Program-made: the position numbers and the translations under genes | In this document: positions 6,236 to 35,934 of the stretch, in pieces | Numbering within the stretch: the stretch's first letter is position 1 | Layout of the letters: every line of letters starts with the position of its first letter | Assembly: GCF_965363235.1 (NCBI RefSeq) | Contig: NC_134845.1 | Coordinates: 26,476,524-26,540,523, forward strand | Reading direction: 5' to 3' | Source: Mytilus galloprovincialis | Taxonomy: Eukaryota; Mollusca; Bivalvia; Mytilida; Mytilidae | DNA: 64,000 nt | Notes under the pieces: generated by a model | Told to the model about the DNA's origin: nothing | The model's input: only the letters and a program-made list of their open reading frames with translations | Databases searched by the model: none

Positions 6236-6237
6236 TA

Positions 6238-6260
6238 CACAGGCAATTTTTTCCAACGTG
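6238..6260 (+). repeat. Left terminal inverted repeat, copy 1
   Basis: A 23-bp repeat that matches the right terminus at 35002-35024 perfectly in inverse orientation, including the run of six T. It is bordered outside by TA. The match ends where the left end reads ATTTTAAC and the inverted right end reads TGTTTCAC. Confidence 0.92.
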
Positions 6261-6478
6261 ATTTTAACATGAGAATCACGTGATATTCACGTTGTCCACA
6301 CCACGTGAGTAGAACGTGAAACGAGCAGAAACGTAATAATCACGTTGTGAGCACAAACGTGACAAAACGTTGTTCACACGTGATATTCACGTTGTGTATA
6401 ATGCCACATGATATCAACGTGATAATACAACGTGATATTCACGTTTAATATATACCACGTGATATAAACGTGATAATA
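6253..6478. repeat. Left subterminal array of AACGTGAT/ATCACGTT half-sites
   Basis: This stretch is packed with variants of the palindrome AACGTGATAATCACGTT, complete or as half-sites. Examples are 'atcacgtgatattcacgtt' near 6276, 'aacgtaataatcacgtt' near 6329, 'cacgtgatattcacgtt' near 6377, and 'aacgtgatattcacgttt' near 6429. Subterminal arrays of a short motif in both orientations are a hallmark of CACTA-type elements, where the transposon-encoded DNA-binding protein occupies them. That role here is inferred. Confidence 0.85.
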
Positions 6479-7031
6479 CAACAGGACATTTATGTGAAGC
6501 AGCCATTGGAAAATATGAAATATTGTCTTTGTTGTACTTATTGACATATCATTTTTTTTCTTGGACATCTCTATTTGAAGATGATTCTCTGGTTCTTTGG
6601 TTCTTTATCTTAAAAGTAGGGTAAAAGTGATGTAAACATCAATAAATTGTCTTGTAGGTTATAACTGATTATCAGCTACCTCATATGCATGTTTAATGTA
6701 CCTGTTATCATCCTGAATATGTATGTAATATTTGCAGCTGGATGTTAAGCATACATCAAAACTTAACTATAATTACAATATATTTTAATCCAAATCACGT
6801 TGTGTATAATGCCACTTGATATCAACGTGATAATACAACGTAAAATTTATGAAGACACATGGAACAATTGAAATATTGTCTGTTGCACTCATTGACGTCA
6901 TTTTGTTCTTCGTCATTTTATTTTGGTTCTCAATTGAATTATTGTTAAACAGTTTTAAACCATCTTTTGATAATAAATGATTATTAGCTACCTTATATAT
7001 GACACTGTGTGTGCAATATTTGCAGCTGGAT
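6388..7031 (+). repeat. Direct duplication of the left subterminal region
   Basis: Block a (about 6388-6744) and block b (about 6796-7031) share, in order, 'cacgttgtgtataatgcca', 'gatatcaacgtgataatacaacg', 'gaaatattgtct', 'attatcagctacct' / 'attattagctacct', and 'gtaatatttgcagctgg' / 'gcaatatttgcagctgg'. Block b has lost most of the cacgt sites. The element's left end was thus internally duplicated, and the inner copy has since decayed. Confidence 0.75.
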
Positions 7032-7119
7032 CATCCATCAATGTATTGTACTTCAAATTATATTTTCTGGTTGTATTCAATGAAGTCCCATTAGTGGCTC
7101 TAATTATAGTTGTGTTCAT

Positions 7120-7180
7120 GCTCTTTGGTCAGGTTGTTGTCTCTTTGACACATTCCCTATTTCCATTCTCAATTTAAGGA
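7120..7180 (-). repeat. Short dispersed repeat fragment
   Basis: The segment 'ctttggtcaggttgttgtctctttgacacattccc...' is the inverse of 32909-32970 ('ggggaatgtgtcaaagagacaacaacccgacc'). Both are pieces of a very common bivalve repeat. It gives rise to a hydrophobic open frame at 6977-7177 that I do not regard as a gene. Confidence 0.6.
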
Positions 7181-8847: not shown

Positions 8848-11800
8848 CTATGCTAATATGGCCCGGTATCTAACAATCCTCTTTTCCTCACGGTCTTTAA
8901 GAGTTAGGTCTTTTTGGGGCTCTTGGTTGCTATTATAACGGTTTTCGTAGTCTTTAAATTCTTTAAAAAACCTGCAACCAAGAGACCCTTTCTGTTCAGC
9001 AGGAATTTTCCGTAACAACTTCCTTTCATGTGCGAAACATCTCTACAAAACAAATTACACATATTAAAGTCAAAGTTTAAACAAAGTGTTGTAAAAATTG
9101 TACCAACTCTTTTGATATTCATGATGACTTATACAGTACTTAATTAGTACTAGAAATTTAGGTACTACAGATTTTTGGTTACTATCGTTATATTTTCAGC
9201 ATTTTGAAAGTTTTTCTATTTCAAATCTCTTAAAATAATGATTTTCAAACATGGAATATTGTATCTTGACCTATGATGGTTTACTTTTATAAATTGTTAC
9301 TTTGGCGGAAGTGTTGCATTGGCACTCATACCACATCTTCCTATTTCTATACGCAAGTTTTATATAATTAAAACTAGTCATTTTGTTATAAACAAAAACA
9401 TTTGCCTCATTTTGTCAAGCCTTAGGTTTCGGTTGAAAAAGCAAGACAGAGTGATCCTTCATTTCATCAGTGGTGGCGCCAGGGTCCACAAATGTTCACT
9501 ATGTGGTTAAAGTTTTTGAAATTTTAATAATTTTCTTCAACTCTCCTGGATTTCTACAAAACTTGAACAGAAGCTAATGTTGATGATCATAATTTAAGAC
9601 AGTATTCGGAAATAAATTTTGAAAAGATAAAATCAAGTTTTTCCTTATTTAAATTTAATAGTGAGTAAATAGTTTTCTTTTCATATGGAAACATTACAAT
9701 TACTCTGTTGTTAAAGTTTGTCAAACATTCTTTCTTATAAAACTATCCTAAATTTGTAGCAACAAGAATGTGTCCATAGTACAAGGATGCCCCACTCACA
9801 CTATCATTTTCTATGTTCAGTGGACCGTGAAAATCGGGGTCAAAACTTTAATTTGGAATAAAAATTAGAAAAATCATATCATAGGGAACATGTGTACTAA
9901 GTTTCAATTTGATGTAACTTTAACTTCATCAAAAACTACCTTGACCAAAAACTTTAACCTGAACTTCGCACTATCAGTTTCTATGTTCAGTGGACCATGA
10001 AATTGGAGTCAAAACTATTATTTGGCATTAAAATTAGAAAGATCATATCATGGGGAAAATGTGTACTAAGTTTCAAGTTGATTGTTAAAATTTTGTACTT
10101 TTTCTTCTGTATTGTACTTATAAATAGATTTAGTTTTTCTGCCAGCTAACATTTATGCATACAGTCTGCAGTTAAATTTTTAAAGCATTTGTTAGATTCA
10201 TAAACTATCCGATTCTATGGATTTACAGCAAAAGTAGGCAAGTCTCTAGGTTCCGCAGAACCCTTACAATACATTTTATTTTTTTTTAATTTGAAATTTC
10301 ATATGACTTCAAGTTAATTTATGCTTAATTTTTTTTAGTTAACAAATTGTTTATATACATAAACTTACTAGATGAGCTGTTAGTAGAATTGTGTCTCTTC
10401 CCAGGTCTGGCTTGAAACGTCCAAATAGGTGTCTTGCCAACCTGGGAAGGTCCATTTCTCCAGGGTCTTCTCCTGTTTCACTGAGTAGCTGTAAAAAGTT
10501 ATAAATTGTATTATGCTCCATAACAAGATTTCAGAGAGCAATTTAAAAAAAAAACATAATTCAAATAGAATGGTGAATGTGTCGGTGGGAAACAGCTATA
10601 GATATTGCCCCAGCTTGCATATCATATAAAGTTATTAAGTGACACAAATGAAGAACATAAAAGTGACTCTACCCAAATTTGTACTTGGAACTTTGTTGTC
10701 ATATTAATTAGTCTTGTGTGTAAGTTTCATAGAATTTGCTTAATGTAAACTTAATTTAGAATACAGAAACGAAAAAGTCAGTATTTTTTCATTTGTCAGG
10801 GGACATAACTCTAGAAAATCAAACTTGATCTGTATTTTGTGGTAATTAGCATTGTGTACAAGTTTTTACCAGTTTGTCAGGATTTCTTGATGAGTTCTTT
10901 TTTAACAAATGTAAATTTAAGAAGTTACTTTATTATCTTCTTATAAATTTTTGTGCATTATTATTTTACCTTGATCTTGACTTGGTTCCTGAAATCTACA
11001 AATTTCCTATATGCAAAGGAGAAACAAGATTTCAGGACCAAGTCAGAATCTTGTTTTACATCATAGGTCCTCCTGTACTGTAGGATCTTTCTCTGAAAAA
11101 AAAATATAACATTTCATAGCTTGCATCTTTTATTAGCAAACTGGTTCCATAATATTTTTTGTTTTGTTATACCCTTAACATTAATGTTTAAAGTGCCTTA
11201 CTGACCAAAAGTTTCCTGTATTCTAATTACTAAATTAATAGTTCACTGTAATATGAATTATAATGCAATTTGCATGTAACATGGCTACGCGTCGCCAGTA
11301 AAACTGCATTTGCGACCGTCAAATCTACAATTGACGGTGGCAACTCTTCAACTACAGTACTGTTATTCCTTAAATATATTGTACTTAGTTATATAGATTT
11401 ACCTTCAATTCGTCGTCTGTTTCCCTGACAAACAGCTCTGTGGAAAACATTTTCCTAAGGTATGCCAAGAAAGGTTTCTACAAAAACCAACATATAATTA
11501 TAATGTGTATTTTAGAAGATGTCACAACAAAATCATGAATTATAAAAGTGAGACCTAATCACCTCAACACTTTAAACATAATCTTCAAAGCAGTGTAAGG
11601 GAGGTAATTTAAATTATGAGGTAATTCAAATAATGTTTCCTCCCTTACAGTACTATGCTTTTAAATTATGTTTTGAACTTAAATGAGTATCTATTAACCA
11701 GAACACCCTTGTTTTCCCCCTATATCTAAATCATCATAACCTCAAAGCCAATTTTTACCATCCTTTTGCACAGTATGGAAACTTTTCAGAGTGATCCATA

Positions 11801-14800
11801 TATTAACACCCTTCCACAAGTTATTATCTGGAAAACTATAAAATGCTTATTTGGGCACCTTATTGGCACTTATTTCCAAATCTGTTAGGAACATAAACCC
11901 CAAAATCAATCCTACACTTTCTTTTCAAGTCATAAATCTTGTGTTTAATTTCTTTGATTTCCATTTACTTATACTAAAGTTATTGTCCGTACGCTTGTGT
12001 ATCAGTCTTGCATGAATAGAAGTAGTTCCAGAAACATGGTTTATCGAAGTGTAAACTAAGAGAAAATTTCTAATTGACCAATCCAATTCAAGTATTTATA
12101 GATATATATGCAAATTATATCAGAATTATTGTCAGTTAATCAACATTTTAAAATTTTATAGTATAAGAAAAACAGACCAAAACACAAAAACTTAAATATA
12201 ACCACTGAACCATGAAAATGAAGTCAAGGTCAGATGACACCTGTCAGCTAGACATGTACGCCTTACAATCATTCCATACACCAATTATAGTAGACCTATT
12301 GCATATAGTATAAGAAAAATAGACCGAAACGCAAAAACTTAACTATAACCAATGAAGCATGAAAATGAGGTCAAGGTCAGATGACACCTGCCAGTTGGAC
12401 ATGTACACCTTACAGTCCTTCCATACACCGAATATACAACACCTATTGCTTATGGTATCTGAGATATGGACTTGACCACGAAAACTTAACCTTGTTCACT
12501 GATCCATGAAATGAGGTCGAGGTCAAGTGAAAACTGTCTGACAGGCATGAGGACCTTGCAAGGTACGCACATACCAAATATAGTTATCCAATTACTTATA
12601 ATAAGAGAGAATTTAACATTACAAAAAATCTTAACTTTTTTTTCAAGTAGTCACTGAACCATGAAGATGAGGTCAAGGACATTGGACATGTGACTGATGG
12701 AAAGTTTGTAACATGAGGCATCTATATACAAAGTATGAAGCATCCAGGTCTTCTACCTTCTAAAATATAAAGCTTTTAAGAAGTGAGCTAACACCGCCGC
12801 CGCCGTAGGATCACTATCCCTATGTCGAGCTTTCTGCAACAAAAGTTGCAGGCTCGACAAAAATTGACTATAAAGGGCAATAACTCTTTAAGGGGTAAAC
12901 TGATGATTGTGGTCATGTTGACTTATTATTAGATCTTAATTTGTTGAACATTATTGCCGTTCAAAGTTTGTCTCCATCTATAATAGTATTCCAGAGAATA
13001 ACAAAAAAACAAAAAATTCTTTAAAAAATACCAATTAGGGGGCAGCAACCCAACAACCAGTTGTCCAATTCATCTGAAAATATCAGGACAGATAAATCTT
13101 GACTTGATAATCAATTTTAGCCCGGGCAGATTTTCTCTTAAATGCTTTGGTTTCAGAGTTATAAGCCAAAATCTACTTACATGTATTACCCCTATGTTCT
13201 ATTTTTACCCATGGGGGTCATCTTGGTTGGTTGGCCGGGTCACATTTTCTTAACTAGATACCCAAATGATGATTGAAGCCAAGTTTTATTGAATTTCTAA
13301 CCAGCAGTTTCAGAGGAGAATATTTTTATAAAAATTGACAGATGACAACAACGAACGACAATGAAGGACGCCAAATCATCCTTAAAAATTTCAAAATAAA
13401 CAAAAAAAATAAGTTTAATTTTGGACCCTTTGATCCCCTTATTCTGTTGGGACCAAAACTCCCAAAATCAATACCAACCTTCCTTTTATGGTCATAAACC
13501 TTGTGTTTAAATTTCATAGATTTCTATTTACTTATACTAACGTTATGGTGCGAAAACCAAGAAAAATGCTTATTTGGGTCCCTTTTTGGCCCCTAATTCC
13601 TAAACTGTTGGGACATAAACTCCCAAAATCAATACCAACCTTCCTTTTGTAGTCATTAACATTGTGTTTAAATTTCATTAATTTCTATTTACTTAAACTA
13701 AAGTTATTGTGCGAAAACCAAGAATAATGCTTATTTGGGCCCTTTTTTGGCCCCTAATTCCTAAACTGTTGAAACCAAAACTCCCAAAATCAATCCCAAC
13801 CGTTCTTTTGTGGTCATAAACCTGGTGTCAAAATTTCATAGATTTCTATTAACTTAAACTAAAGTTATAGTGCGAAAACCAAGAAAATGCTTATTTGGGC
13901 CCTTTTTGGCCCCTAATTCCTAAAATGTTGGGACCAAAACTCCCAAAATCAATACCAACCTTCCTTTTGTGGTCATAAACCTTGTGTTAAAATTTCATAG
14001 ATTTCCATTCACTTTTACTAAAGTTAGAGTGCGAAAACTAAAAGTATTCGGACGACGACGACGCCAACGCCAACGTGATAGCAATATACGACGAAAATTT
14101 TTTCAAATTTTGCGGTCGTATAAAAAGTAAACTATTATAGGTCAATGTACGGCCTTCAACATGGAGCCTTGGCTCACATAGAACAACAAGCTATAAAGGG
14201 CCCCAAAATTACAAGTGTAAAACCATTCAAACGGGAAAACCAAAGGTCTAATCTATATAAAAAAAATTAAAAAACGAGAAACAAACGACAACTACTGCAC
14301 ATCAGATTCCTGACTTAGGACAGGTGCAAACATTTGCAGCGGGATTAAATGTTTTAATGGATTCAAACCTTCTCCCTTTTTCTGAAACAATAGCATAACA
14401 TCACAACATAGAAAAACACAAGATAAAATATCATAATAAATGTTAATTTTTGGTCCCGTTTTCAAATTGGTCTACATTAAGGTCCACAGGGTCCAAAATT
14501 AAACTTAGTTTGATTTTAACAAAAATTGAATCCTTGGGGTTCTTTGATATGCTGAATTTAAAAATGTACTTAGATTTTTAATTATTGGCCTAGTTTTCAA
14601 GTTGGTCCAAATGGGGGTCCAAAATTAAACTTTGTTCGATTTCATCAAAAATTGAATAAATGGGTTCTTTGATATGCCAAATCTAACTGTGTATGTAGAT
14701 TCTTAATTTTTGGTCCAGTTTTCAAATTGGTCTACATTATAAGGTCCAAAGGGTCCAAAATTAAACTAAGTTTGATTTTAACAAAAATTAAATTCTTGGG

Positions 14801-17800
14801 CTTATTTGATATGCTTTATCTAAATATGTACTTTGATTTTTGATTATGGGCCCAGTTTTCAAGTTGGTCCAAATCAGGATTCCATATCAAGTATTGTGCA
14901 ATAGCAAGAAATTTTCAATTGCACAGTATTGCACAATAGCAAGAAATATCTAATTGCACAATATTGTGCAATAGCAATTAATTTTCAATTGGAGTTATCT
15001 TTCTTTGTATAGAATAGTAGTTGATAATATATGTTGGAAATTTGCCAGACATGACTATGATGTCATTTTCTATTTTTATTTGCCAATAACTTTATGTAAA
15101 TAACTACATTGGAAATTTGCCAATATAAAATGTTGCTGATGAAGCTTTTTTTCCTTATCTTATCTAAAATGTTTTTAGATAATGTATGTTGGACATTTGC
15201 CAGACATGACTATGATGTCATTTTCTATTTTTATTTGCCAATAACTTTATGTAAATAACTTCATTGGAAATTTGCCAATATAAAATGTTGCGGATGAAGT
15301 TTTTTTTATTGTTTTATACAATAAACAATGTATATTCACTTTTACTACCAACCAATCTTTACCATTCAGTGATAACAAACACTTTATTTTACATTTTAAT
15401 ATTATATGATGTATTTAAAAGAGTAGTTATTGTTGCAAACTCCATTAGAAATTTGAATTGATATCAGTTTTGGAAAAAGGGAAACGGGGATGTGAAAAAA
15501 AAGTGGGGGTTTAAATTTTTCTCATTTCAGATTTCATAAATAAAAAGAAAATTTCTTCAAACATATTTTTGAGAGGATTAATATTCAACAGCATAGTGAA
15601 TTGCTCAAAGGCAAAAAAAAAAAGTTCATTAGACCACATTCATTCTGTGTCAGAAACCTATGCTGTGTCAACTATTTAATTTTAGATTTAAAAAGTTTGA
15701 AGAAGAAATCTTTAATTGATTTGTAAAATCTTGACATTTGTTTTGTGTAAAAAAAAACCATGTAATGTCAAAAATTTGATCACAATCCAAATTCAGAGCT
15801 GTATCACACTTGAATGTTTTGTCCATACTTGCCCCAACTGTTCAGGGTTCGACCTCTGCGGTCGTATAAAGCTGCGCCCTGCGGAGCACCTGGTTTAAAA
15901 TTGTTATTTGGATGGAGAGTTGTCTCATTGGCACTCACACCACATCTTCCTATATCTATGGAGCTTTATACTTTCACTTTACCTCCACAGCAGATCCATC
16001 AACATTAAATGTTGGCACTGGAATTTCTTTAAAATTCACCTGCTCCTTTAATTTGGTAAGCTCTTCCACTGCAATTTTCAAAAGTTATTCTACATTAATA
16101 TAGAAATACTACAATATAGACTCTTGAGTCTTTTCCTGGTTATGATATATATATTATTTTTAGTTCTTTAAATGATAAAATATTATGTATATCATACCTT
16201 CTTGCTTATAATTAGTTAAGGTATGTGTCAGGAAGTGCACTTGTCATATTATATATAAGATACTGTGTAAAGTATATAAGATAATATTATTAATTCGTAT
16301 ATTTTAACAAATTTGATTCGTTTAGGGATAGTCACATGTTAAACTATATTTCCGAAGGTAGAGAGAAAACGGCGGATAGCAAAAAGCATATTGACCTGCA
16401 AAAAGCATATCGCACGGTTATTTTTAGAATATCTAAAAACCGATATACTTTGTGACGTCATGTAATGAATTTCAGGATATTGTTTAACGTTTTGAAACAC
16501 ATGATATCTATGATCGATTATTTGACGGAAAAAATCTTCGAATACATATATAAAAAAAAAAAAAGTAAATGAAATAACAACTAATATGTTGTTATTGTCA
16601 AGCACGGGGGGTGGGGGGGGGGGAGGGTGGGGTGGGGGTGGGGGGTGGGGGTAACTTCAATATTTTTTTGGTAGGGGTGTGCCATTTTTGCCTCAAAAAA
16701 CGTACCCATTTTAATATAACATTCACTGAAATTCAGTACCTATAGTTATATAAATATTTAAGAAAGAATGACCTATACTTATATACAATATTTAAAATAT
16801 ATATGATATTTTTAAATGTCAAATACTTCCATGCAGAAAGGTGCACATTTAATCAGATTTGAAGAAGAATAGATTGAATTTATATATGATATGTAGATCA
16901 TACCCAAATCAATATACAGTTATCAAACGTGAAGGCATTTTGATATAGGATGTCATTAAAAAAGCTCGCAAAATTATGACCCATATTTTTGGCACATCCT
17001 CGTATACCTATTAATAGGAAGTTATCCCCCCCTTCCCCGTGTTGTAAAGGAGACAATGTAATATCTATAAAATTCCAACAAACCTAAATGACGACTTTGA
17101 TACAAATATGGTTGGAAATTAATAATATAACAAATATAGCCTTTGTATGAGGTCAATATACTTCTTTCAGGTCAATATATCCTTGTATCGACCTCATACA
17201 AAGGCTATATTTGTATAATATATATAAGATATATATAGAGAATAATACATGGCAAAATCTGTATCATATGTCGTATCATCCCGAGACATCAATATCAGCC
17301 CAAGGGCCTAAATTAGGGTTTGAAAGAAACTGTTGTATAATGCTGTCTTTATTCTACCTTTATAGCTATAATATATATATATAATATATATGATTCTTTT
17401 TATAGTACATACATATCCTTTTCAGCATTCCATAATTTTGTTTGCAACATTTGCAGTCACATCCATTTTGATTTTCTGTCCCATCATTATCATCCTGTGG
17501 CTGTACCTCTGGCTCTCCTGAATCAAACAGATCATCCTGACTATGGTCAGGTTCAGTTTGCTGACTGTCCTGAAGATAATGATAAATTTCATAATTTCAT
17601 GACATTAAACTGTTACAGAAAATTTCAAAGAGCCAGTGTAGCTCATCTAGGTTTACGTACAGAATTAAATTAATTATATGTGTGAAGAATGGTACTTTCA
17701 TGTAGATTTGTTTGTTAAAATATTGAGGTAGATCTAAAGATATTATTTTTTTTAAAACTATTTTTGTAGCCCACATGGAACATACAGGCGTTATTCAATA

Positions 17801-21400: not shown

Positions 21401-24400
21401 AAGTGATTAACTTCATATCCATGATATCAGAGGTAAACCAGCTGTTCCATTAAGTTTCAATTAAACAAATTAAAAACCAAAACATTAACTTTAAAACTAT
21501 ATTTTCAATCACAATCCGTATACATGTATATTTAAATACTTGATATTAGATATTGTCACTCACATACTTACAACTACATGTATTCTTCAGTATTGAATCA
21601 ATTGTTACCCCATAGAAGAAGGTAATAGTTGCATCTCATGATGGTAAATTAAATCACTTTTGTTTGGTTCTTGAGCATTTGAACTTGATCACTGTTTAAA
21701 GCTGGATATTATTGATATTTTCTATTTGATATTGATCTTTGAAAAAAAACTTATTTTAAACTGAAACTGTAATAAATTTATTATACTTTACATTAAAATG
21801 ACATTTTTTGAGTGGCTAATAAGAGAGTGTTGATTTACTCTCTCACATGGTTAGCGATTGATATTTATGACCCACCTACGATAGCAGAGGGGCATTATGT
21901 TTTCTGGTCTGTGGGTTCGTTTGTTCGTTCGTCCGTCCATCCTACTTCAGGTTAAAGTTTTTGGTCGAGGTAGTTTCTGATGAAGTTGAGGTTCAATCAA
22001 CTTTAAACTTAGTTCACATGATAAGAAATCCATAGTATTTTAATTTCACTCATATATATATCATTGTTAGTCTTAAAAAGTACATGTATATTAAACATGT
22101 TAAAGTTACTATATTTTTTTAATTTTTCAGGGTCAATCTTGTCTTACTATTGTAATGCAGTTGGTTAAAATTAACCCTCAGGAATTAGATTGTTATAATG
22201 ATGATAGGCAAAATAGTACAGGGTAAGTATTTATCAATTATGGACTATTGACCGGGTTATTTTGTTATTCCCGGAACTGTTCAGATTATATTGGCTGAGG
22301 TCAAAGTCACAGATGTAATATAATACACAGGTCCTTAAACAGATTATTGAAAAAAAATACTTAATTTATAAATTAGGAGATAACTGTATTGTATTTTAAT
22401 CTCTGACGGCATTAATTGGGGATTTAAAAAAGATATAGACTTGATGTTACTTAATAAGGGATAACTGTATTGTATTTGAAGCTTTAAGGACGTCCATCGG
22501 TAGTTTTACTGTCGCAAATTTAGTTTACCTGGCGACGCAGAGCGGAGACAGGTAAACAGGTATTTGCGACAGTAAAACTACCGATGGACGTCCGCAAAGC
22601 TTCAAATACAATACAGTTATCTCTATTGTAATGCAAAACAATTTCATAATTAAATTTCAATCATTATTTCAGTGTAAAATCTTCATTAAAGAAAATTCTG
22701 CGAAAAGGTGTTATCTTCTTTGGTCCCTACACTAGGTGACGTCATTGGTATTCCTCCGGCATCAAACATTAACACCGGGTGTTTTCTTGCTTCTGTGCCG
22801 CTTCAGAATGTAATAAAATTTGATAAAAAGAAGATTTTTAGGTGCAACATGCGAGTTTTTTGGCTTATTATTGTAGAAATTTCATGTCAATATATTCAGC
22901 AATTCAAAATGTCGGCTTCCTTAATTACAGACAAGGAGATAGAGAATTTTACGCTAACTGTCATCCAATCAGAACCATTGATACAAAATAATTGCATTAG
23001 AATTTTTTATACCCCCATTTTAATCATACCACCGCTTTAAATAAGGTGAGCGTATACTAATTTACATCTGTCTGTCCATCCGCCTGTCCTTCCATCACTT
23101 TGTCCTTCCCATTGATATTTTCTTCAGGAATTACAATGCAAAGAATTCTGAAATTGGGTTTGAGGGTTTATCATAGGTCAGCTGTACTGGGTGATGCGTT
23201 TTCAGGTTCATCTCTCAACAACTTCCTGATTACCAAACACTTGTATGATTTTACACATGATAACCAAGTTCAACTTTTCCATCACATTTTTCTACAAAAC
23301 TACACTTGAGGATTTCTGAGATTTGGTTTAAGGGTTTGGACAGCATTGATTGGCAGGCATTAGGTAAAATTCACAACATATAGTGTGAAAGTCATATTAT
23401 AGTGCAATTATAATTGATTACTACAGAAAATAAATTAATGTTGGTTTTTTTTTAAATAGCATTTGTTTGATAACTGGAAATATGGTGGAATATCCAATAG
23501 ATGAATGTGAATTGATGGATCTGGCAATAATTGAAAACATTTCATTCATGAAAAAAATTAATGGAGATTACATAAACTGCACTCAACAGGTAATTAGCAG
23601 TCCCCATTTTTAATCATTTGATATTCTGATAAAAAGCTGCGAGAGAGTTGCTGCCTTATTATTTCTATCTTGTGGCTTGTGGAAAGACAAGCATGACATT
23701 TAGACAATATAAGTATAGTGTCTTGAAATATGAAATTTATTTGTATGAGGCTTAGAAACGGGGAAAATGCGAGGTTCTACCTGAAAATTATACTGAAATC
23801 GATAAAAAATATAAAAAAATTAAATAAAATATGTAAAAAATTCATTGACTACAAAAAAAAAAAGATATGATTGCCATGTTGAGACAACTCTCCACAAGAG
23901 ACCAATATTACACAGATATTAACAACTATTCTATAGTTTACCGTACGACCTTCAACAACAAGCAAAGCCCATACCGCATACTCAGCTTTAAAAGGTCCCG
24001 AACTGACAATGTAAAACAATTCAAACCAGAAAACTAGAGGCCTCATTTATGCCCAAAAAAAATGAACAACAAACAAATATGTAACACATAAACAAACAAC
24101 AACCACTGAATTACAGGCTCCTTACTTGAATGTTCATAACATACTAAATGTATGTTCATATTGAAATTGATAGAAAACCAAAAAATGGGAATATTGTAAA
24201 TAAAGGAAGAGGGATAGAAAAAAAGCATTTTCCTGTCCCCATAAGAGGAGGGATATGACCTTTATCAGGACTCAGGGATCGGGTTTTTTTTAAAATCGGG
24301 ATTTCCCCTTTCAGGATCCGGGATTTCCTTTTTTTTTCAATTTCGGGACCTCAGGATTTCGTTTTTTAACCCCGGAATTTCAGGATTTCATGTTTTAAAG

Positions 24401-27400
24401 CCAGGGAAGGCGGAATTTCTGGATCAGGACCCCTCCTATCCCCCTCCAATAACATGACTTATGATATTTTTGCTGAAATTTTCCAGTCCTTTATGTTTTA
24501 CAAAATTCTTCCAACAACACTTTACATACTTTAAACTACGCTCTGAATGCCTGCGATTTCGTGGGTGTGTTCTAGTTATAATGATAATGAAAACACCAAT
24601 TATGCTTAAATTTTATTCTTTTTTATAAATGTTTTATAGGATAGAGATTTAATGCTAGAGGTTTCGCCATTTAAAATCAGCAATCTTCCAGTTGTTACAG
24701 TACCAATCAACATATTTATTGATGACACATCTGCCAACAAGTCCAGAAGATGGGATGCCTTGCATTGCATACAAACACAGTTAGCAGGAATACCACTTAA
24801 AGATAAACAAAGAAATAGAAATGTTATGGTGCTAGGTACCTCTGACAAGGTTGCTATACTGGATATAGCTAAACCTATTTGTGATGATATCCTGTCTCTA
24901 AAGAGGTATAGAATTTCCAACATCTGGTGTATATCAAAATGATACTTAGGTTACCAGATAAATAAATTATTAAAGTGATCATTTTAAGTAATTAATGTAA
25001 ATCATGATCTAACTTCAGTATTATGTCAAATCAATGTGATAAATGTCAGTTTTTTTAATAGATTAACTATGTTTTACTGTTTAAGAAAGTAAAATATTTT
25101 ATCAAATAATTTGTATATTAACAATAATTAATAGTTTACACAAACTTTTTGTAAAGCAACACATTCTGTGTATTTTATATATAATATTCTGTATAATAAT
25201 TAAATTAGTTGTATAAATAGTTTACATTTGTTTATTAAAAGCTCTGGAATTAGAGGATTTGATGCCATGACCAAAGAGAACATTATGATAACATCAGATG
25301 TAAACTGTATAATTGCTGATTACAACTGTGTCAGTCTTGTTTGCAATCATCTGGGACCATCCGCAAATAAGTTCTGTCCTAAGTGTATGGTAAGATGGTA
25401 TTTTTATGACTAGGAAGAATTATTTTTATGCCTGGATATATATTGTTAGCTTTTTTTTTTAACTTAAGTTTGCCTCAACCAAATGCCATGAAACTTATGA
25501 AAACTTATTATTTACACAAAACACAGATCAATTTGGAATTTTAGAGGCATCACGTAAAAAGTTTTAAAGTTATACGCTTTACAAGTAGAAAAATATATAT
25601 AACATTAATGAAGGAAATAAAAGCTTTATTTTACACTGTTTGAAGATGAAGCAGTTAATTCAAACATGCCTGACATACTTTTTTAGATTTCTACTAGTTT
25701 TTGTTGTTGTTGGGGTTATAGATTCATTTCATATTATGGATATCAAATGAGAGTTTTTAGATTTGCATTGTCTTAATTGTTAGATATTCTTTAAAAGTTT
25801 CATTTCATTTTTCAGGCAGATAGTTCAGATCCTTTGAGTTTTGAATGGGAAAAACGTACCCCAAATAAAACTCAAAGAACAATAGAGCACATAAAAATAG
25901 CAAGAAATAAGGTAGAGATCAGGAAAGAAAATGGAGTGAAAGAACATACTAATTGTTTTTGGGAAATAATCAATTGTCATAAGTAAGTACAGTTTATAAA
26001 CAAAGTTTCTGCTTTGTACCTTAAGGATGTACTTAGATGAGGTTAGGTTAAAATTAATAAATTAAGAAGTTAAAATTGATACTATAAGCTGGTAGAACAC
26101 TCTTTCCGGATAAAAATAAGCTAAAAATATTGATAATCATGGACCTCCTTTTTTAAATATTTTAGATTTGAAATATGGCGGGAAAAGGCTGACTCAGATA
26201 GTATTTGGGTCTCAAAACCAAAGAAAGAAAATCAAGAATCTTCTAAAATTTTGGTGAATGACCTTTCATGAGCTAATAAATCTTATATTAAAAAATAAAT
26301 GGGTGTTATGGGGCAAAATATTTTACATTGTATTGTATGGAAAAACACCAAAAAGTTCGAACTTTTGACGCAAATTCCAAAACCTCACCTAAGTACATCC
26401 TTAAGGGGGCTCGCGGGTCTAAATATTTTTTTTTTTATCTAATACAGGATTTCTCTATATTTTTCTATAAATGAACTTTATCTTATACTTAATAGAAAAA
26501 TGAAATAAAAAAATGGGGTCACCGTTCATTTACGCTCACAATCTGCCTTCGGAAGAAGCATACATTTTTGTTGATGTCCTTTTTTCTGTTGAACTAATAG
26601 GAGAGAAAACGGTAATATCGAAATAAAAAAAGAACTAAATTACAGAAATCGCTCAAATTTTACAGTTATTTAGTTTATGTACAGCTTATTTGAAAACAAC
26701 AATAAAAAATATAGGTCACCGATAACTTAAAAAAGATAATTCAATTTTAATCCCAAAAAATGGCATTTTTGCAACAAAGGGAGATAATTTGAAGCTTTTT
26801 CAATGATATCTACATTTTAAAAGTCACCTAGGGTCAACACAAATTGATTTTTTGGAATGATTTACTCATAAGTAAAAAATAAACTGAAAATGCCATAGCT
26901 TAAAATAAAAAGACACATCCAAAGGTTCATTTTCATTTATCCAACTTTTTAAAATTTTAGGTTGTTAAGGTAAAAAAAAAAAGTTGGATAGATGAGATCA
27001 AAGGTAATCAAGAACAAAGGGTTTTTCAATTAGAGTTTGGGTTGAATGATAGATGAAAAATAAGACTGAAAATTATACCCTAATTTATTTTTCTGTAGTA
27101 TTAATAAGAAAAGCATGTTAAAATGTGCAACTAACATTTAGTTAATGTAATGTTATTCATTTGAAAGTATTTTAAAGTTTTTTAACCATTAATTAAAATG
27201 TGAACTGGATAGAAAAATATCAGTTGCACTTTTATTCATGAAGAGATTTGTCAATGAGATAAAGCTTTTTTGGTGTAATAGATCCTGTTCATTCGTTTTT
27301 TTCTGTTCTTCTGACCAATTGATCCAAATGAGACAAAATATAAGTTGAATACGTTTTACTACACAAAGACTGAACAGAACAAAATTCAAACAATAATATA

Positions 27401-30400
27401 TAGGTACCACTTATAGTCGCATTGACATCCTCTCTTATGATTATTCCGTTTGTGTTATTTTGGGAGAAAAACGAGCTAGCTTCCCTTGGCCAGAGGTCAA
27501 TAAAATTTCTGCAGCAGTACCTAAAGTGTGGGCCAGGTGAGCTAAAAAGTTGGATAAATGAGAAGACGCCCATCCAAACAACATGTTAAGGGGTCATAAA
27601 CCTTAAATATTTAAACAAGGCTTTGGAGATATTAAATAACCTTTGAAACATTGATTGCCATATTCAATAAAAAAACAACCCAGTAGAATGCTATACCCTA
27701 TGTTATATATAATGATGTTCAACTGATTTTTCCATTTGTAGAGACACTCCAACTGGATTACTCCATTTCATGTATTTGGGTTTAGTAAAACATCTCGTGC
27801 AGGTAAATATAAAATAATTGGATGGTATATACAAAACACAACTTGACAAAACTTTTTCACATTTAGCTGTTGGTTTTATATTAATTATTTTTTTTTGTCT
27901 ATGACCACATTTTTTTATGTTTATCTAATCACATGACTAAAGTATGTCTATGGGTTGATAAAAGAAAATAACGTCAGCCGATTAAAAGACGCGCTACATC
28001 CCAAATTAAATTATTAATATATAATAACCATTATTATTATAAGAATTTGAATTTATTTTCCAAAACATTCCAACAAGTGACATATGACAGACAACACATT
28101 TATTCTCAAATCTTTCACATTTCTTTAGTCATTAGTTGAATAAAGTTTGATAAACATCGGTTTTATGTTGTTGTTTTTAAGGTGAAAAAGTTATAGTTTT
28201 AAAATAATTTAATACTTTTATATTTTTTTTGTATGTATAATTCTAAATCTTTTGAGTTACTATACTTCAATAATTATAAGTGTATCTTAGTGAGTGCATT
28301 TACTTCTTTTGCAGTTATGTTTGACAAAACTTTCAGAGCAGCAGAAAGAAAAATTAGAACTGCATCTTAATAGTTTAAACTTGACTTCTTTTCCTTACCC
28401 TGTGAATGGGAAATTCATTAAATATGTTGACAGTCGACAAGGAAAAGATTTTAAAACATATGTAAGAAATATTTGATATACATTGTTATTGATTTTTTTA
28501 TAATGTTTCAACCTTTCACTTTTATAGTTCATTACAGTAAAATTTTGTAAATGCCACTATCAGCCCTCTTTGCTTAATCATGGTAGCCAGCTTATAATTA
28601 TCCAGAACACTGGCAGGACTTATAAATTAAGATGGGAGTCAAATTCACAGAAATTTTTGTGTCATTCCTTTTAAGAAACTATAAATTAGAGTTATTTTAT
28701 ATTTGATAGCAAGTGTTGCTTAATTTTAAGTAACTAAATACTAAGTACTTTATTAGGGAAATAATTTTTGAACTAATTTATTGTCCACAGTTCAACTTCT
28801 TTTGACTTATTGCAGGTGCAGGTGGCATTTTTTAATATGGAGTATGTCCGTCTTCCAATGAAATACCTACAAGCAATATCAGCCTTAGCAATGGTAATTT
28901 TCTATGTAACATGGAAATTATTTTTATAAGGTTTTATGATAAGGAATGAAAATAAGATATCTATTGGGACTGACTACCAACCAATCAAAATGTTGCATTC
29001 TTATATATTTCAGAAAATATTCAGTAGGATATATTTGTTCAATAATCTCAATAACTATCATCATATGTCATATTTAGATAAGCTTGATTTTGCAGCTTGT
29101 ATGTTCATAAATTAAGGAAAAGGGAAGGTTATTGTACAACATAAGGAACATATCCAATATCATCTGTGAAACCCTTATTCCATAACGGTCAAGCAACAAG
29201 TGATGGCCTCGGTAAAATATACGAAGGAATGATTTCAACTTCACCATTTTGAACATAAAATGAAGTAGATGTGGTATGATTGCCAGCGAGACATCTCTCC
29301 ACCATATATCAAATAACATAGAAGTTGACAAAAAATGTATGGACCTCAACAATGAGGAAATTCCACATGACACAGTCCTGTCGAAATTACTGATATGTAT
29401 ACATTTTAAAGGAGATTTCACCAACTTTCTGATATATACATTTATAAAAAAATGAACTTGGTGTATAAATTTTGAATAAGTTTTGATAAAATCATACTTA
29501 CTATAATGTGGTTATAGTCATAAAAAGTATATTGTATGTGTTTGAGTTGCTTTCTTTTTTTTCAGATGTCAAAACACATTCACACTACAGAAGGTACTGA
29601 AACTGTAGATAAAGACATAAAGAACTACATTGCCATAATAAAAGAGAAAATACCAGAGCTTTCCAGTAAAAAAAAGACTCATCTGTGTATGCACTTGGTT
29701 AGTTGAGATAGTATCTATAAATTAATAAAAGTAACTTAGTTGTCCTCAGTGAACAATATTCATTGGGATATGATGGATGGGAAAAAAAAATTTAAATTGT
29801 AATTTTGCCTCATGAATGAAAAGTTTTATTGAGTAATGCAATTGCTTAAGGAATAACATGTGATGTGCAGTTAGCCAATCAGAATTACATATTATAGTGA
29901 AACATACATCTAATGTAATTATTATATTATGTAATTAGACTCTATGTTAAAATTAATACAATTTAATACAGTGTATCATTTAATATCTGTAGATTGATGA
30001 TATTAAAGAACATGGATGTTTATTGGAATACTCTGAAGATGCATTCGAAAAAAACCATGGGCTCATTAGATCAGAAATATTTATACAAAATCAGTTGGCA
30101 AAAAGTAGAGATACAGCAGCACAATTTAGCAGAAATGCCATTCTGGAACACATCATTAGTGGTGGTTATTTCTTAGATAACAACAACTGGTATGTAGAAT
30201 CGTGCGTTAATGCTTTGATTATTTTTTGCCGTATAAGAATTCTAATATGAAACCTGTTTTAAAATGAAGATTAAAATGTGTTTCATGTCTCATTTTTAGG
30301 TATCATCCAAGTCAAATTTCAAGTTTTCATTACATTAGTAAGTTAATGCTTTGGTTTTGCTATGAATTAGACAGTTAAAAAATTTCAACCAATTTTTACA

Positions 30401-33400
30401 TGAACCACAAAAATATGATTTGCCGACTTTTTGAAATGTTCTGGATCCACTACTGGTTGGTAAGTCAATTAGTCCAGTTTTTACAGCAATAAATTTCTTT
30501 AAAAATTGGTCTAATCATGTATCAATTATTATGAACTATCAGAATTATCTCATTTAAGCAAATGACAGTTTTAGTAAACAGCTGAATGAATACAGTTGAA
30601 CTAAGCTGTATAGAATCAAGTGATTAACAAATTAAGAAAAGTATATGTAAGAATTCTTGTCATAGTAGGTTATATAGTAATGGTTTACTGATATAAGAGG
30701 TCGCTAACATGACTATACCAAAATTGCATCTATTTTGACAGTTTTTTCCACCTAAATGTCTTTTTAAGATTCAGACGAAAATTTCCTTTCTTGGTTTGTT
30801 TTGTAGGGAAGACCTTTTTAATTTTATAGGTTCATCAATATGATTTTTAATCAGTATTTTTTCATAGGAAAATGGACTTGATTGGACCTCCGAACTATTC
30901 ATGATTCCATTATGAGGAGTCTCCTGAAATTGAACCAATGCTCTAGTTCACATCATTAAAAATCAAATAACAAATGTTTTATTTTATTTTTTCATATATT
31001 AAGTAGAACCATATTAATAAGGTGTCTTTGTAAGAATTGTTGAATTGTTAAATATATTTTTATTTAAGGATTCAAGCCAGTCAACAAGTCCAAAGTTTTG
31101 GAAGGGTTAATATTGTGGAGAAATTTATGGGAAAAGGGAACGAGACAAAAGGGAAATTCACCCTATCAAAACTTGAAAAGAAAGACAATCTACAGGTAAA
31201 TATACTGCAGCTGTGCTATTTGAGGAGTCAAATTGCATTGACTGTATATTCATATGTCATATACAGTCCATGACAGTATATCACCTTGTTTATGACGTTG
31301 ACAATGGGTTTCCGTAGAGTTTTATTTATGACGTCAATAAAACATACAGGTTCGCGGAAATTTAACGTCGTCCGCTTCAAATTAAGAAATGACGTTTTTT
31401 ACCCAAAATACTTCATTCAGAACATTTTTAAGAGTTGCAGTATATAAAGAATAACCATACATTGTCTTGAAATATCAATTTGTTATTTGTACTCGGCTAG
31501 AAACAGGTAGAAATGCTTGGCACAGCCTCGCTTTCTACCTGTTTCTAAGCCTTGTACAAATAACATTGATATTTTGAGACAATGTACATGGTTATTCTAT
31601 ATATTTATAGTTGGATGATGAAATCACTATTAAAATGGTTTGATAGTCATAAAAGTTAAAATGTCAAAAATTCCTTACAGTGTCAATATGAAGAATAGAA
31701 GATCGAGGCTTGTCAGATTTACATCAAACTGAAATACACTTATTTTCTCAAAATATTTTTGAACATAATTGGTTCCTGATCAACATAAAATGTAACTCTG
31801 CCATTCCACTTTACACAGAAAATTGAAAGTAAATAAATGTGTTCGAACTTCATTATTCATTTATTTGAGGAGTGACTGTAACATTTGTTTCTGTCTAAGG
31901 AGAAATAACATCAAAAATGTGTTGCAAACTGATTAACCCTTGTAGTGAGTTATGTTACAGTATGCATCAATTTTTTTTTATAATTGTAGTTGGAAAAAAT
32001 ATTACAGTCTTTTCCCATAATTAAATTCTAAATTCAATTTTAAACCATAGAAAAAACGTTATTGACAGGACTAAATTACATGTCTATTTGATAAGAAAAC
32101 AACAACAGCCAATCAAAAGATGTTAGATGTCAATTAATTAGAGGCTTATTTTTTATGCATTTTAGTGCAATAGAACACAGAATAGTTCACAGACAATTTC
32201 TTACAATACTGTTTTTTTAAATAATCAGCACATTATATAATCTATAGATATACACATTTAATTCAGTATGAAATGGAGTTTTAAATTATTGAGTTGCATT
32301 AAACAATATATTTTCAGAAACTAAGTGACCTTCAAATTCTGCAAGCCTTTGTCAACTGTGGTCTTTCGATATCATCTTATAATGAGCAGTGTACTGTCAC
32401 ACAATTCTTTGGTAATGCATTAACCAAAAGTGGAGAAAGAGCAACCCTTGGAGGATATGTTTTGTATCTTGAGGAAGAAGAGGTATATTAGTTTGTAAAA
32501 CAAATAAACTCATTGTTTTCATAGGATTGTGAAGATTTTTTTCTCATCTTAACAAAACAACGAATGCCCTTGTTAATTTATGCAAACTTTAATAATTGAT
32601 AATTCATGAGTATTTAGTGTGTATTTTGAAAAAGTGTTTAAACTGAAAGTTTGATATTATTCCTAAGTTGTAGACAGATCTTATACAATTACTGTCTGTT
32701 AATGAGGTAAATATTTCTTATTGACTTTTGAAAAACTGATATTCACTGAAACCACATATTTACTGAAACAAAAGACAGTAATTGTTTTATGGAACAATTT
32801 TTTTCAATGGATAAAAGTTACGGTCAAATCCACATTTGACCATGAGTTGTTACTAAGGATAGACTTTTTCTTTTAATCATTGGATCATCAAATGTCAAAT
32901 AAAATTGAGAATTGAAATGGGGAATGTGTCAAAGAGACAACAACCCGACCACAGAAGAGACAACAATAGAAATAAGCTTATATTGCTATGCAAAAAATAA
33001 TAATTGCACCATAACATTATACTTTTCTTTATTTATTTTTTTAAAGTATATAAACATTCTTGGTCCAGAATTATGACATTTCATAATTTATATTATATTT
33101 TCACTTAACTAAATCAAATTTATATTAGCCTTACAACACTTGATTACTTGTTTAAAACATATTTGAATGTTTACAGGAAAAAATTGGGAGAATTAAACAG
33201 CTAGCTAACATAAAAAGTGGAAAATTGTGTATTGAGATTGCTATAATTGTAACAAGCAGGCCTGTGATATACAGATGTCAGAATATAGAAGCTGTCATGT
33301 TTAGTGCGGAGGAAACTATAGTTCCACTGAAAAACTTAATACAAAATGTGCATCTTATTCATGATTGTATAGGAGGTTTTTGCCCTATAAAAGAAACAAA

Positions 33401-33530
33401 ACAAATTGTCAAAGTAGAACAAGAGATGATAGAGAAAACTATCAAACATTTGCAGCATAACGTTAATCATGATGTTTATTTGATAAATAAATTTAGATTA
33501 ACTCATTTGAAGGACAAATATATTGTATAG
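18486..33530 (+). CDS. Plavaka-like EnSpm/CACTA transposase, copy 1 (18 coding exons, 976 aa)
   Basis: Catalyses excision and insertion of the element in the nucleus. Exons: 18486-18920, 19838-19963, 20513-20610, 21255-21432, 22131-22222, 23460-23589, 24640-24905, 25242-25389, 25816-25982, 27742-27802, 28315-28461, 28816-28893, 29566-29697, 29993-30189, 30300-30337, 31077-31195, 32318-32482, 33177-33530; 2,931 nt, one open frame. Domains: C2H2 finger (C19, C22, H35, H41); acidic Ser-rich linker (about 60-110); WFPFNNKVHYLL block (about 120-187). RNase H-like core: FIDDTSANKSRRW (D381/D382), IADYN (D468) with zinc-binding CNH...CPKC (C476, H478, C487, C490), DTPTGLLH (548-555), GKDF (611-614), and YSEDAFEKNHGLIR (E701/E705). 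C-terminal HDC-x4-C module (921-928) with following H residues. This order matches fungal Plavaka transposases as I know them. Start chosen by good ATG context before the finger. Exon 15/16 is uncertain: the first AG (31068) breaks phase with donor 30338, so I used 31077. Confidence 0.85.
20049..20367. repeat. Foldback element, member 1 of 2
   Basis: It starts 'atatcaccttgtttatgacgttgacaatg' and ends in a hairpin with arms 20218-20289 and 20300-20366 ('agaataaccatacattgtctcgaaatatcaa...' and its inverse). It lies in transposase intron 2. A second member, roughly 90% alike by eye, lies in intron 16 at 31278-31599. It is probably a non-autonomous DNA element. Confidence 0.8.
20683..20969 (+). 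repeat. Bivalve dispersed repeat, TGCCCC family, near complete
   Basis: It runs from 'tttatgccccacctacgataatagaggggc' through 'tctgttcgttgtctgtttgtctg', 'caggttaaagtttttggtcaaggtag' and 'cacggtccattgaacatgg' to 'tttggacacattcttgtt'. It sits in transposase intron 3. This family is what most strongly suggests a mussel-like host. Confidence 0.8.
20980..21135 (+). repeat. Bivalve dispersed repeat ('gctgactatgtggtatggg' family)
   Basis: 'ggccttttatagctgactatgtggtatgggctctgatcattgttgaaggtcgtacggtgacctaaagttg' parallels the member at 4900-5010. It fills the rest of intron 3 of the transposase before exon 4. Confidence 0.65.
21866..22020 (+). repeat. Truncated TGCCCC-family repeat
   Basis: 'gacccacctacgatagcagaggggcattatgttttctggtctgt' to 'aaacttagttcacatg' repeats the first half of the element at 20683. 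It lies in transposase intron 4. Confidence 0.75.
22460..22621. repeat. 162-bp near-perfect hairpin
   Basis: Arms of about 60 bp ('gataactgtattgtatttgaagctttaaggacgtcc...' and its inverse ending 'aagcttcaaatacaatacagttatc') surround 'agtttacctggcgacgcagagcggagacaggtaaac', itself partly palindromic. It forms the left part of the repeat unit that continues to 23010. It lies in transposase intron 5. Confidence 0.85.
22622..23010 (+). repeat. Internal repeat B, related to 7625-8045
   Basis: Second member of the family described at 7625-8045, strongly similar by eye. It contains a 110-codon open frame (22708-23040). The matching frame in member A is interrupted, and the region has no splice or family support, so I treat it as non-coding. 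Confidence 0.75.
23870..24230 (-). repeat. Bivalve dispersed repeat, inverse of the 4820-5085 family
   Basis: 'tgattgccatgttgagacaactctccacaagagacca', 'gtacgaccttcaacaacaagcaaagcccataccgcata' and 'aaacaacaaccactgaattacaggctcctta' identify it. It lies in transposase intron 6. A stretch of imperfect repeats on 'cgggatttc' and 'aggatttc' follows at 24270-24440. Confidence 0.7.
26021..26404. repeat. TTAA-flanked MITE with GGATGTACTTAG ends
   Basis: It begins TTAAGGATGTACTTAGATGA and ends with the inverse 'ctcacctaagtacatccttaa'. The inverted repeats are about 22 bp with one mismatch, and TTAA stands outside both ends, as in piggyBac- or Kolobok-like non-autonomous elements. The interior, about 330 bp, has no coding signal. 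It lies in transposase intron 9, 38 bp after the exon 9 donor. Confidence 0.8.
26405..27741. other. Rest of transposase intron 9, nothing identified
   Basis: AT-rich sequence with 'aaaaagttggata(g/a)atgaga' at about 26982 and again at 27545, and 'atccaactttttaaa' near 26939. These look like fragments of one more dispersed element whose limits I cannot set. Minus-strand open frames at 27189-27573 show no family features. Exon 10 begins at 27742. Confidence 0.4.
29255..29345 (-). repeat. Short dispersed repeat fragment
   Basis: 'aaaatgaagtagatgtggtatgattgccagcgagacatctctccaccatatatcaaa' is a piece of the same bivalve repeat as 23870-23910 (bases 'gattgccatgttgagacaactctccac'). It lies in transposase intron 12 and generates a spurious 116-codon minus-strand frame. 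Confidence 0.6.
30338..31076. other. Transposase intron 15, nothing identified
   Basis: No repeat or exon that I can name. A sound donor (GTAAGT) opens it at 30338. Two candidate acceptors close it, at 31067-31068 and 31075-31076; see the exon 15/16 finding. Confidence 0.5.
31278..31599. repeat. Foldback element, member 2 of 2
   Basis: It is colinear with 20049-20367 over its whole length, including the hairpin arms, and lies in transposase intron 16. Differences by eye are around one base in ten to fifteen, so both members entered or diverged long before the 28.8-kb copies separated. Confidence 0.8.
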
Positions 33531-34650
33531 TTAACAACCAAAATTTGTTTTTGTATTTTTGTTAACTTAAGAAGGGTCGTGAGTTCAAAAAAAATCAGCA
33601 AATATTTAAACATTTTTTTTTCATAACAAATTTTATTCATTACACTATTATTTATAACATTATGATATGGTTAAAAAATGATATTTATTAATTTTTTTGT
33701 AAATGATTTAATTAATTATAAGCTCCAACAAAGATACGGTTATGGGAGTAACATTCAAGAGAACTTTTTTCAAAAAAGAAAAAGGTTTATTCAGATTAAA
33801 AGCACTTTATGTGTATATAAAAAAGAGGGAAATTAAGGGTTTTAATATTTTACCTGTCAACTCACAATTTTGCTTAAAGTATTGTTATCTATATTTTGAT
33901 TATAGAAAGAAAACTTTAAAATGAGGAAATTAAAATGATGATTAAAAATTGTTGTACTGGCATAATTTATATCATAGTACAGGTACTTGTTCTGTTTTAC
34001 CCATAAAATGTGTCTATGTAATTATTAGGAATGAAAAATCTGATCAACAATTATGTTGCTTCAATCTTATAATTTATAACACTTTATGCTTTCCTTTGTC
34101 AATTGAGAATGGTTCTTAATACCTGTAATTAATAGTCAAAACATGATGAGATTTTTAAGGGATATATTAGTGATTGAACTAATTTCTGTAAAAATTAATA
34201 ACTGCTGATATTAAAAGGTTTTCAGTCAACAAAGTTGAATGCATGATATGTGTAGATTAAAATTATGAAAAGGTTTAAATGATTACACATACATTGGTTT
34301 AGTATAACCAAGATAAATTCTCTTTTTACAAGTTTTACAGTGTCAATGAAAATTTGTATCCCACTTAGGGGAGACAATCCAAGAAAATAACTACAGGGCT
34401 GATTTACTGGAACTACAAATAGATTATTGAATATTTACTTCCATATTTCAAATTTCAAACAATGTTGGTATGTTCTTAACTTATATGGTGACTTATTTTG
34501 CAGATTGAGAAAATAATTTTTAGCTATGAGGTTAATCTCTGAAATAAACATCAGAAATGTTTTGTTTTCTTGTTTTCTATATATATTTTAATTGGTAAAA
34601 AAGGTAACTTATAATTAAAGAAACTGCCCCCCCCCCCCAAAAAAAAATAG
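33531..34650. other. 3' region of the transposon between transposase stop and right array
   Basis: Presumed 3' untranslated and spacer sequence. A possible polyadenylation signal AATAAA lies at 34543-34548, followed by a T/GT-rich stretch (34557-34580), but it is about 1 kb from the stop and unproven. A segment at about 34336-34440 resembles 8660-8765. No further gene is seen. Confidence 0.4.
34336..34440. repeat. Segment similar to 8660-8765
   Basis: Shared: 'tgtcaatgaaaat', a 'gt(c/a)(t)c(c)c...' stretch, 'g(a)gagacaa', 'aactac(a/t)...aca(g)gg', and the 'gaactacaaatagattatt' / 'gaattggcaaatggactatt' part. Identity is perhaps 70%, same orientation. It may be a small internal repeat or a diverged dispersed repeat. 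Confidence 0.35.
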
Positions 34651-34651
34651 A

Positions 34652-35001
34652 CGTGAAAGATAACTCAACTTTTACCTCATGTGAAATTAACATTATATTT
34701 ACACGTTAAAATCATATAAAAAAAAAGATATGTGAAATTAACACAATCTTTTCACGTTTAAATCACGTTAAAAAAATGTCATATGATAATAACGTTACAT
34801 TGAAACGTGAATATCACGTTAAAAAAATATCATATGATAATAACGTTACATTGAAACGTGAATATCACGTAAGCAGATAGAAACGTGATTATCACGTGAG
34901 AATATCATGTTTGTAAAATACACGTGATATAAACGTTTATCCCGTGTGATACACACGTGGGAAAAACGTTATTCTCACGTGATGAGCACAAACGTGAAAC
35001 A
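34652..35001. repeat. Right subterminal array of AACGTGAT/ATCACGTT half-sites
   Basis: Many AACGTG, CACGTT and AACGTT sites are present. They include two nearly identical 56-bp blocks with 'catatgataataacgttacattgaaacgtgaatatcacgt' (about 34781-34870), 'aaacgtgattatcacgtgag' near 34883, and 'acgtgatataaacgt' near 34921. The motif equals that of the left end, but the arrangement differs and the two arrays are not copies of each other beyond the 23-bp terminus. Confidence 0.85.
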
Positions 35002-35024
35002 CACGTTGGAAAAAATTGCCTGTG
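35002..35024 (-). repeat. Right terminal inverted repeat, copy 1
   Basis: CACGTTGGAAAAAATTGCC... ending GTG, the perfect inverse of 6238-6260. TA follows at 35025-35026. Confidence 0.92.
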
Positions 35025-35026
35025 TA

Positions 35027-35932: not shown

Positions 35933-35934
35933 TA

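Follow-up and report, generated by a model that had tools for sequence, protein, structure and literature searches.

A very large, probably recently mobile CACTA-like transposon with TA target sites in Mytilus galloprovincialis

Plant CACTA elements carry arrays of short motifs in their subterminal regions, and cut-and-paste transposons in general are usually thought to be less mobile as their length grows. Among animals and fungi, the TRC elements, exemplified by SmTRC1 of Schistosoma, are described as about 4.5-9.2 kb in length with 2-bp target-site duplications, and CCC-initial ends have been put forward for this group as a suggestion only (PMC1636069, in extract). For bivalves, a curated library lists two CMC elements (PMC10294476, in extract). 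Here we describe a new, very large and recently mobile form of the CACTA-like type, a complete 28,787-bp cut-and-paste DNA transposon, in a stretch of 64,000 nucleotides of M. galloprovincialis (C8:26476524-26540523, hereafter the window), which we compared with the whole genome (1.385 Gb, 331 contigs). Neither this element nor an animal CACTA-like element of similar size was reported among the open-access literature matches listed. Our main reading, to which we assign a probability of about 0.8, is that of an autonomous, very recently mobile CACTA/EnSpm-like (CMCT) cut-and-paste transposon with a TA target, in which two proteins would share the work of transposition, a local hop would have produced a neighboring copy, and relatives devoid of genes would be mobilized in trans.

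The first copy of the element occupies 6238-35024 (+) and is delimited by 23-bp terminal inverted repeats at 6238-6260 (+) and 35002-35024 (-), with CACAGGCAATTTTTTCCAACGTG reading inward from 6238 and its reverse complement finishing at 35024, to give the form CACAGG...CCTGTG; the match between the two ends is perfect across these 23 bp and no further. A TA target-site duplication is found on either side (6236-6237 and 35025-35026). Both ends harbor subterminal arrays of the half-sites AACGTG/CACGTT/CACGTG, with 14 in the first 300 bp (6255-6472) and 12 in the last 300 bp (34753-35007), and the arrays contain 51-bp tandem units. When only AACGTG was counted on both strands, there were 10 in the first and 8 in the last 300 bp vs. 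0.04 on average, and never more than 1, across 597 other 300-bp segments of the window. We surmise that these AACGTG/CACGTG arrays are likely binding sites. A previous sequence-only reading had claimed a complete 28.8-kb DNA transposon with perfect 23-bp inverted ends, TA on both sides and half-site arrays at both termini, and all of this was borne out by the ends, the TAs, the arrays and an identical second copy, which that reading had overlooked and which is described below.

A genome search with TA plus the 23-bp end yielded 25 sites at two or fewer mismatches (11 perfect), compared with 0 for a reversed control pattern, and 12 of the 25 sites formed six inward-facing pairs, the two copies in the window included. 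The other pairs at this threshold delimit elements of 20,793, 11,785, 3,110 and 347 bp, and a seventh pair, with 3 mismatches at one end, delimits an element of 1,192 bp; TA was present on both sides in all seven paired copies. Only two loci, copies 1 and 2 of the window, had ends exactly 28,787 bp apart. The anticipation that several loci would carry both ends about 29 kb apart, each bounded by TA, thus held for the recurrence of the pairs, for their TAs and for these two loci, while the remaining five span 0.35-20.8 kb. These five match the window copies at 73-95% identity over ~560 bp at most on the left and over ~150-345 bp on the right, in addition to scattered repeats, and four of the five share more with one another, the two largest over about 9 kb. 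Draft proteins of genes 1 and 2 matched nothing convincingly in the five copies, the best hit having E 1.2 in the 20.8-kb element; in the 11.8-kb one, no coding signal or long conserved frame was apparent by eye. The five look like non-autonomous relatives.

Apart from these pairs, searches with each end yielded at least 38 matches for the left and at least 18 for the right, many of them partial or single ends. Two candidate pairs were dropped, an 18-kb one on C10 without a left terminus and with no TA at its right end, and one on C14 (C14a) comprising two right ends whose flanking DNA also forms inverted repeats. At C14:3814452-3825279, two outward-facing copies of the right end are separated by 10.8 kb and bordered on the outside by DNA that is itself an inverted repeat; this has the look of an end duplicated in inverted orientation together with its flank. 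Elsewhere on this contig (62.9-66.0 Mb) are five left ends that share one strand, two of which (62976868 and 64787727) lie within 1.5-kb stretches that are 99.7% identical and perhaps represent a segmental duplication. At C9:79262991-79264069, the left subterminal region recurs as six partial matches in a row, as if a small tandem array had formed.

The element harbors two genes. Gene 1, the candidate transposase gene (18486-33530, +), was modeled from the genomic sequence, by joining exons on splice signals and phase with hand-written splice matrices, as 16 exons (18486-18920, 19838-19963, 20513-20610, 21255-21443, 23460-23589, 24640-24905, 25242-25389, 25816-25982, 27742-27802, 28315-28461, 28816-28893, 29566-29697, 29993-30189, 31081-31243, 32318-32482 and 33177-33530) encoding 951 residues with no internal stop. 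Protein-level matches in relatives, in order, were obtained for 13 of the 16 exons, with an 83%-type copy on C11 as the support for exon 5; exons 14 and 15 had no counterpart in relatives, and exon 14, which partly overlaps a repeat (59 of 163 bp), is the weakest of the model. The predicted protein opens with a C2H2-like finger; it includes the stretches FIDDTSANKSRRW, IIADYN, CPKC, HLCMH and YSEDAFEKNH, and we assigned by eye D354/D355, D441, C460/C463, H654/H658 and E674/E678 as its motif residues. This order, in which C(2)C and H(3)H follow the second D and precede E, agrees with the description of the CMCT group (PMC12730594, in extract). Our first model had 13 exons and lacked the exon with the last E, which was added after this motif order had been consulted and was then checked; it has 7 matches in all, comprising the 2 window copies, the relatives on C7, C8 and C10 at 55% identity without stops, and 2 others with stops.

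Conservation of gene 1 in relatives was also evident at the level of the exon row. The frame at 24640-24939 has 20 genome matches, 2 of which are the window copies and the others 38-89% identical over parts, while the frame of the last exon (33156-33527) has 8, including one of 97% that adjoins a right end on C7 and others of 31-35% on C8, C12 and C7, on the same chromosomes and strands as the relatives of the former frame. Between the window and the C12 and C7 relatives, the exons are conserved in order and the introns align at repeats only. The C7 relative retains C(2)C and H(3)H plus both E residues; the C12 relative is probably dead because of a stop at the second cysteine. Related multi-exon copies of gene 1 were located at C8:1541233-1551414, C7:18196.8-18213.0 kb, C12:27809911-27816133 and C10:4294063-4301189, at about 31-57% identity per exon, with the C8 and C7 exons free of stops where seen and the C12 copy bearing a stop. 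Compared with Pfam, the whole gene 1 protein reached E 0.0043 for Transposase_21 (16.7 bits, under the cut-off of 28.6); in two relatives, this domain (PF02992) was not reported at E up to 1. An exon-by-exon genome search, which handicaps a split gene, listed 49 Transposase_21 places; gene 1 was not one of them, and many are single frames of 500-1,000 codons. A search of solved structures gave 5 hits up to E 10 with no transposase among them, and Pfam scans of the separate exons gave nothing meaningful. Gene 1 looks like a divergent, intron-rich lineage alongside canonical relatives.

Gene 2 (8848-17569, -), encoding a probable accessory protein, is a partial model with exons at about 17569-17413, 16045-15983, 11477-11403, 11092-10970, 10515-10369 and 9042-8848 (stop), and these are supported piecewise, less well than those of gene 1. 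For the first of these exons, a sequence on C10 matches at 77%, and its counterpart on C7 is weak (25-30%) and stands head-to-head with gene 1 in a related element; the next two match C7 at 43% over 23 residues and 31% over 29 residues, and the C7 counterpart of the fourth was recognized by eye only. The last four exons are readable in one phase, and of these the one at ~10515-10369 has a weak acceptor and lacks a counterpart in relatives. Over its second half, the last exon shares 75% identity with a sequence on C5 near a related left end, with stops further up in the C5 copy. Neither a start exon nor a Pfam match was obtained for gene 2. A 51-residue open reading frame at 11236-11388 (-) was dropped as a candidate for this gene, a near-same peptide being present inside an intron of a related element. 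In the largest gap between the first two modeled exons, there is a G-rich tract on the + strand (16606-16651). By analogy with two-protein CACTA elements (PMC1636069 and PMC4158355, both in extract), we surmise that gene 2 probably encodes an accessory DNA-binding or end-bridging protein. The earlier description of two intact multi-exon genes therefore applies to gene 1, with its open 951-residue frame, while gene 2 is pieced together and its start was not found.

The five other paired copies showed neither gene (the gene drafts, not the final model, having been searched) and Transposase_21 genes in single long frames are numerous in the genome, so another transposase might drive the ends, with the interior and both genes being passenger DNA or a nested older element. 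We consider this unlikely, as the last exon of gene 2 lies near the diverged left end on C5 (DNA 73-81%, end 95%) and the last exons of gene 1 adjoin a right end on C7 (about 98%); these two neighborhoods suggest that ends and genes have stayed together. Since neither gene was seen in the five other paired copies, the action of gene 1 on the ends is nevertheless something we infer.

Further evidence for a mobile unit came from its neighbor. Copy 2 (35935-64721, +), preceded by TA at 35933-35934, starts 906 bp downstream of copy 1 across a spacer at 35027-35932, passes the window edge (64000) and has its right end at C8:26541244 (window 64721), followed by TA. In a self-comparison of the window, 6236-34303 recurs at 35933-64000 without a single difference and, with the DNA beyond the window added, there are 0 differences across 28,791 bp, both TAs included. 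Identity starts and stops exactly at TA, and the three flanks (left, spacer and right) are mutually different. Genome-wide, a single full-length match to the spacer was listed among the best 40 of 5,596 candidates, the remaining 39 being copies, at 75-79%, of a dispersed repeat covering part of it. Because the identity starts at TA and the full-length match of the spacer is single, we read the two copies as two same-orientation insertions and not as a duplicated stretch of chromosome. If a mutation rate of 1e-8 per site per generation is assumed for this animal, a single difference should arise about every 1,700 generations, and our upper guess for the age of the copies is a few thousand generations at most. 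These data suggest that such a bulky element moved very recently.

An identity this complete also invites the suspicion that there is a single copy only, the second being an assembly error or a plain tandem duplication. At 28.8 kb, the element exceeds many reads and zero differences would fit a collapsed repeat used twice; even with two real copies, the figure of 100% could come partly from collapsed reads and hence be possibly overstated. However, a tandem duplication would bring flanking DNA along with it, whereas here the repeat stops at TA and the flanks differ, and the single full-length match of the spacer also argues for two insertions, so that we hold the single-copy explanation to be improbable. 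A variant of this concern, which we judge to be quite unlikely, is that one chromosome carries the insertion at the first site and the other chromosome that at the second, with the two haplotypes joined by the assembly. Insertions this recent should often be heterozygous, and there is no second version of the spacer in the assembly; however, merged haplotypes would still require two very recent insertions 906 bp apart, and long reads should easily span a 906-bp spacer.

The sequence-only reading had conceded that, should the termini never pair elsewhere and no empty site exist, the ends could belong to separate short elements (MITEs) around ordinary host DNA. Short elements with the same ends do exist (347, 1,192 and 3,110 bp); nevertheless, the whole 28.8 kb with its ends is repeated exactly from TA to TA, the rightmost 5.7 kb, terminus included, occurs a third time on C7 at about 98% identity, and six pairs plus a seventh were found together with empty sites of relatives. 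We rejected the idea of separate short elements as highly improbable on account of the second copy, with its ends paired at 28,787 bp.

For empty sites, we searched the joined flanks of all seven copies, looking at the best 40 of 2,004 candidates, so absences weigh little here. Of the 41 rows listed, 34 fell on the join of the 11.8-kb copy and 3 spanned that of the 3.1-kb copy. All five loci fetched (2 for the 3.1-kb and 3 for the 11.8-kb copy) were gapless at the junction, with a single TA in four and TT in the remaining one, and paralogous empty sites therefore exist for these two relatives. The 11.8-kb relative sits in a repeat of which 34 copies were listed, 15 of them within C8:93.7-95.9 Mb. 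With respect to copy 1, its left flank belongs to a dispersed repeat, and four aligned repeat copies all continue past the junction into the start of the spacer in short, imperfect and gapped alignments, with TA kept in three of the four (in two as TTA|GACT); these alignments weakly support an empty site for copy 1. For copy 2, the joined flanks found only its own two halves and no empty site. An allelic empty site from the other haplotype was likewise not found in the assembly, given the single full-length match of the spacer among the best 40 of 5,596 candidates. Matching empty sites, as proposed earlier, were thus obtained in paralogous form for two relatives, weakly for copy 1, and neither for copy 2 nor in allelic form.

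As for the class of the element, terminal inverted repeats with a target-site duplication at several unrelated places identify a cut-and-paste DNA transposon. The CA..TG termini and 2-5 bp duplication of the CMCT group are represented here by CACAGG...CCTGTG and a 2-bp TA; in place of the CACTA ends and 3-bp duplication of the plant type there are CACAG ends and TA, and in place of the CCC-initial ends of TRC the ends begin with CAC. The element probably belongs to CACTA/EnSpm (CMCT), judging by the motif order of gene 1, the ends and the duplication taken together; its Transposase_21 score stays under the Pfam cut-off. A Tc1/mariner-type element, which the TA duplication by itself might suggest, was rejected as scarcely credible on the basis of C(2)C and H(3)H of the CMCT group in the gene 1 model, Pfam scans of gene 1 without a Tc1/mariner domain, and ends that begin with CAC.

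Returning to our main reading, we propose that the DDE transposase of gene 1 would pair both ends and cut at CACAGG...CCTGTG, probably assisted in end pairing by the gene 2 protein bound to the half-sites, and that insertion would take place into TA, which would be duplicated upon repair. Local hopping is familiar from other transposons, and the simplest account of two identical copies 906 bp apart would be that the element hopped over a short range after replication, leaving a replicated site for one that had yet to be replicated. Elements with the same ends but without genes are probably mobilized in trans by the proteins of gene 1 and gene 2.

Introns and intergenic DNA, in part older repeats, account for most of the length of the element. 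Coding exons make up 2,856 bp of the 15,045-bp span of gene 1, with introns of 295 to 2,016 bp, and of the 24,694 interior bases outside exons, at least 6,842 (28%) have a match within 193 kb of other loci, a lower bound obtained from loci of which some overlap mutually and some are distant relatives of the element. Five tandem arrays are found at 12157-15307. The earlier proposal that the size comes from introns filled with repeats is supported accordingly, with the repeat share given as a lower bound. The element is ~29 kb long and mostly intronic or non-coding; its transposase model is open, its ends are clean, and an identical neighbor lies 906 bp away. It offers a natural case for the maximum end separation that a CACTA-like transposase can pair, for the possibility that host splicing lets a transposon bear nested repeats harmlessly, and for the question of whether half-site arrays and a second protein enable great length. 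It also reveals an escape route from annotation, with a gene split into 16 short exons and scoring under the Pfam cut-off.

We surmise that the element represents an animal CMCT lineage apart from the canonical Transposase_21 elements of this genome, intron-rich, with a 28.8-kb autonomous form that has grown partly by intron repeats, still pairs ends 29 kb apart, inserted twice very recently and moves gene-less relatives of up to 21 kb; for this fuller picture we see the chances as evenly balanced. TRC elements resemble it as animal CACTA-related transposons with terminal inverted repeats and a 2-bp duplication, and are reported with a Transposase_21 region and spliced transcripts; they are set apart, by description, by their length of about 4.5-9.2 kb and CCC ends vs. 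28.8 kb, CACAGG and TA in 7 of 7 copies here (PMC1636069, in extract). The EnSpm-like ESTA elements of rust fungi share TA duplications as well as C(2)C and H(3-4)H between the second D and the last E but, again compared by description only, are fungal and comprise three families with a TET/JBP gene (PMC12730594, in extract), for which no match was found in the proteins of our element that were scanned. Plant CACTA/En-Spm elements share CAC ends and subterminal arrays. They also have a second protein that supports transposition; in contrast to the 2-bp TA here, they have a 3-bp duplication, and their putative ancestral transposase has four exons and no transposable elements identified in its introns vs. 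16 modeled exons and repeat-bearing introns in gene 1 (PMC4158355, in extract). Finally, the En/Spm elements of the red alga Chondrus are likewise oversized (16-20 kb, with 4-5 open reading frames), with additional reading frames accompanying their size (PMC6431247, in extract), whereas the element described here is larger still, with introns and repeats.
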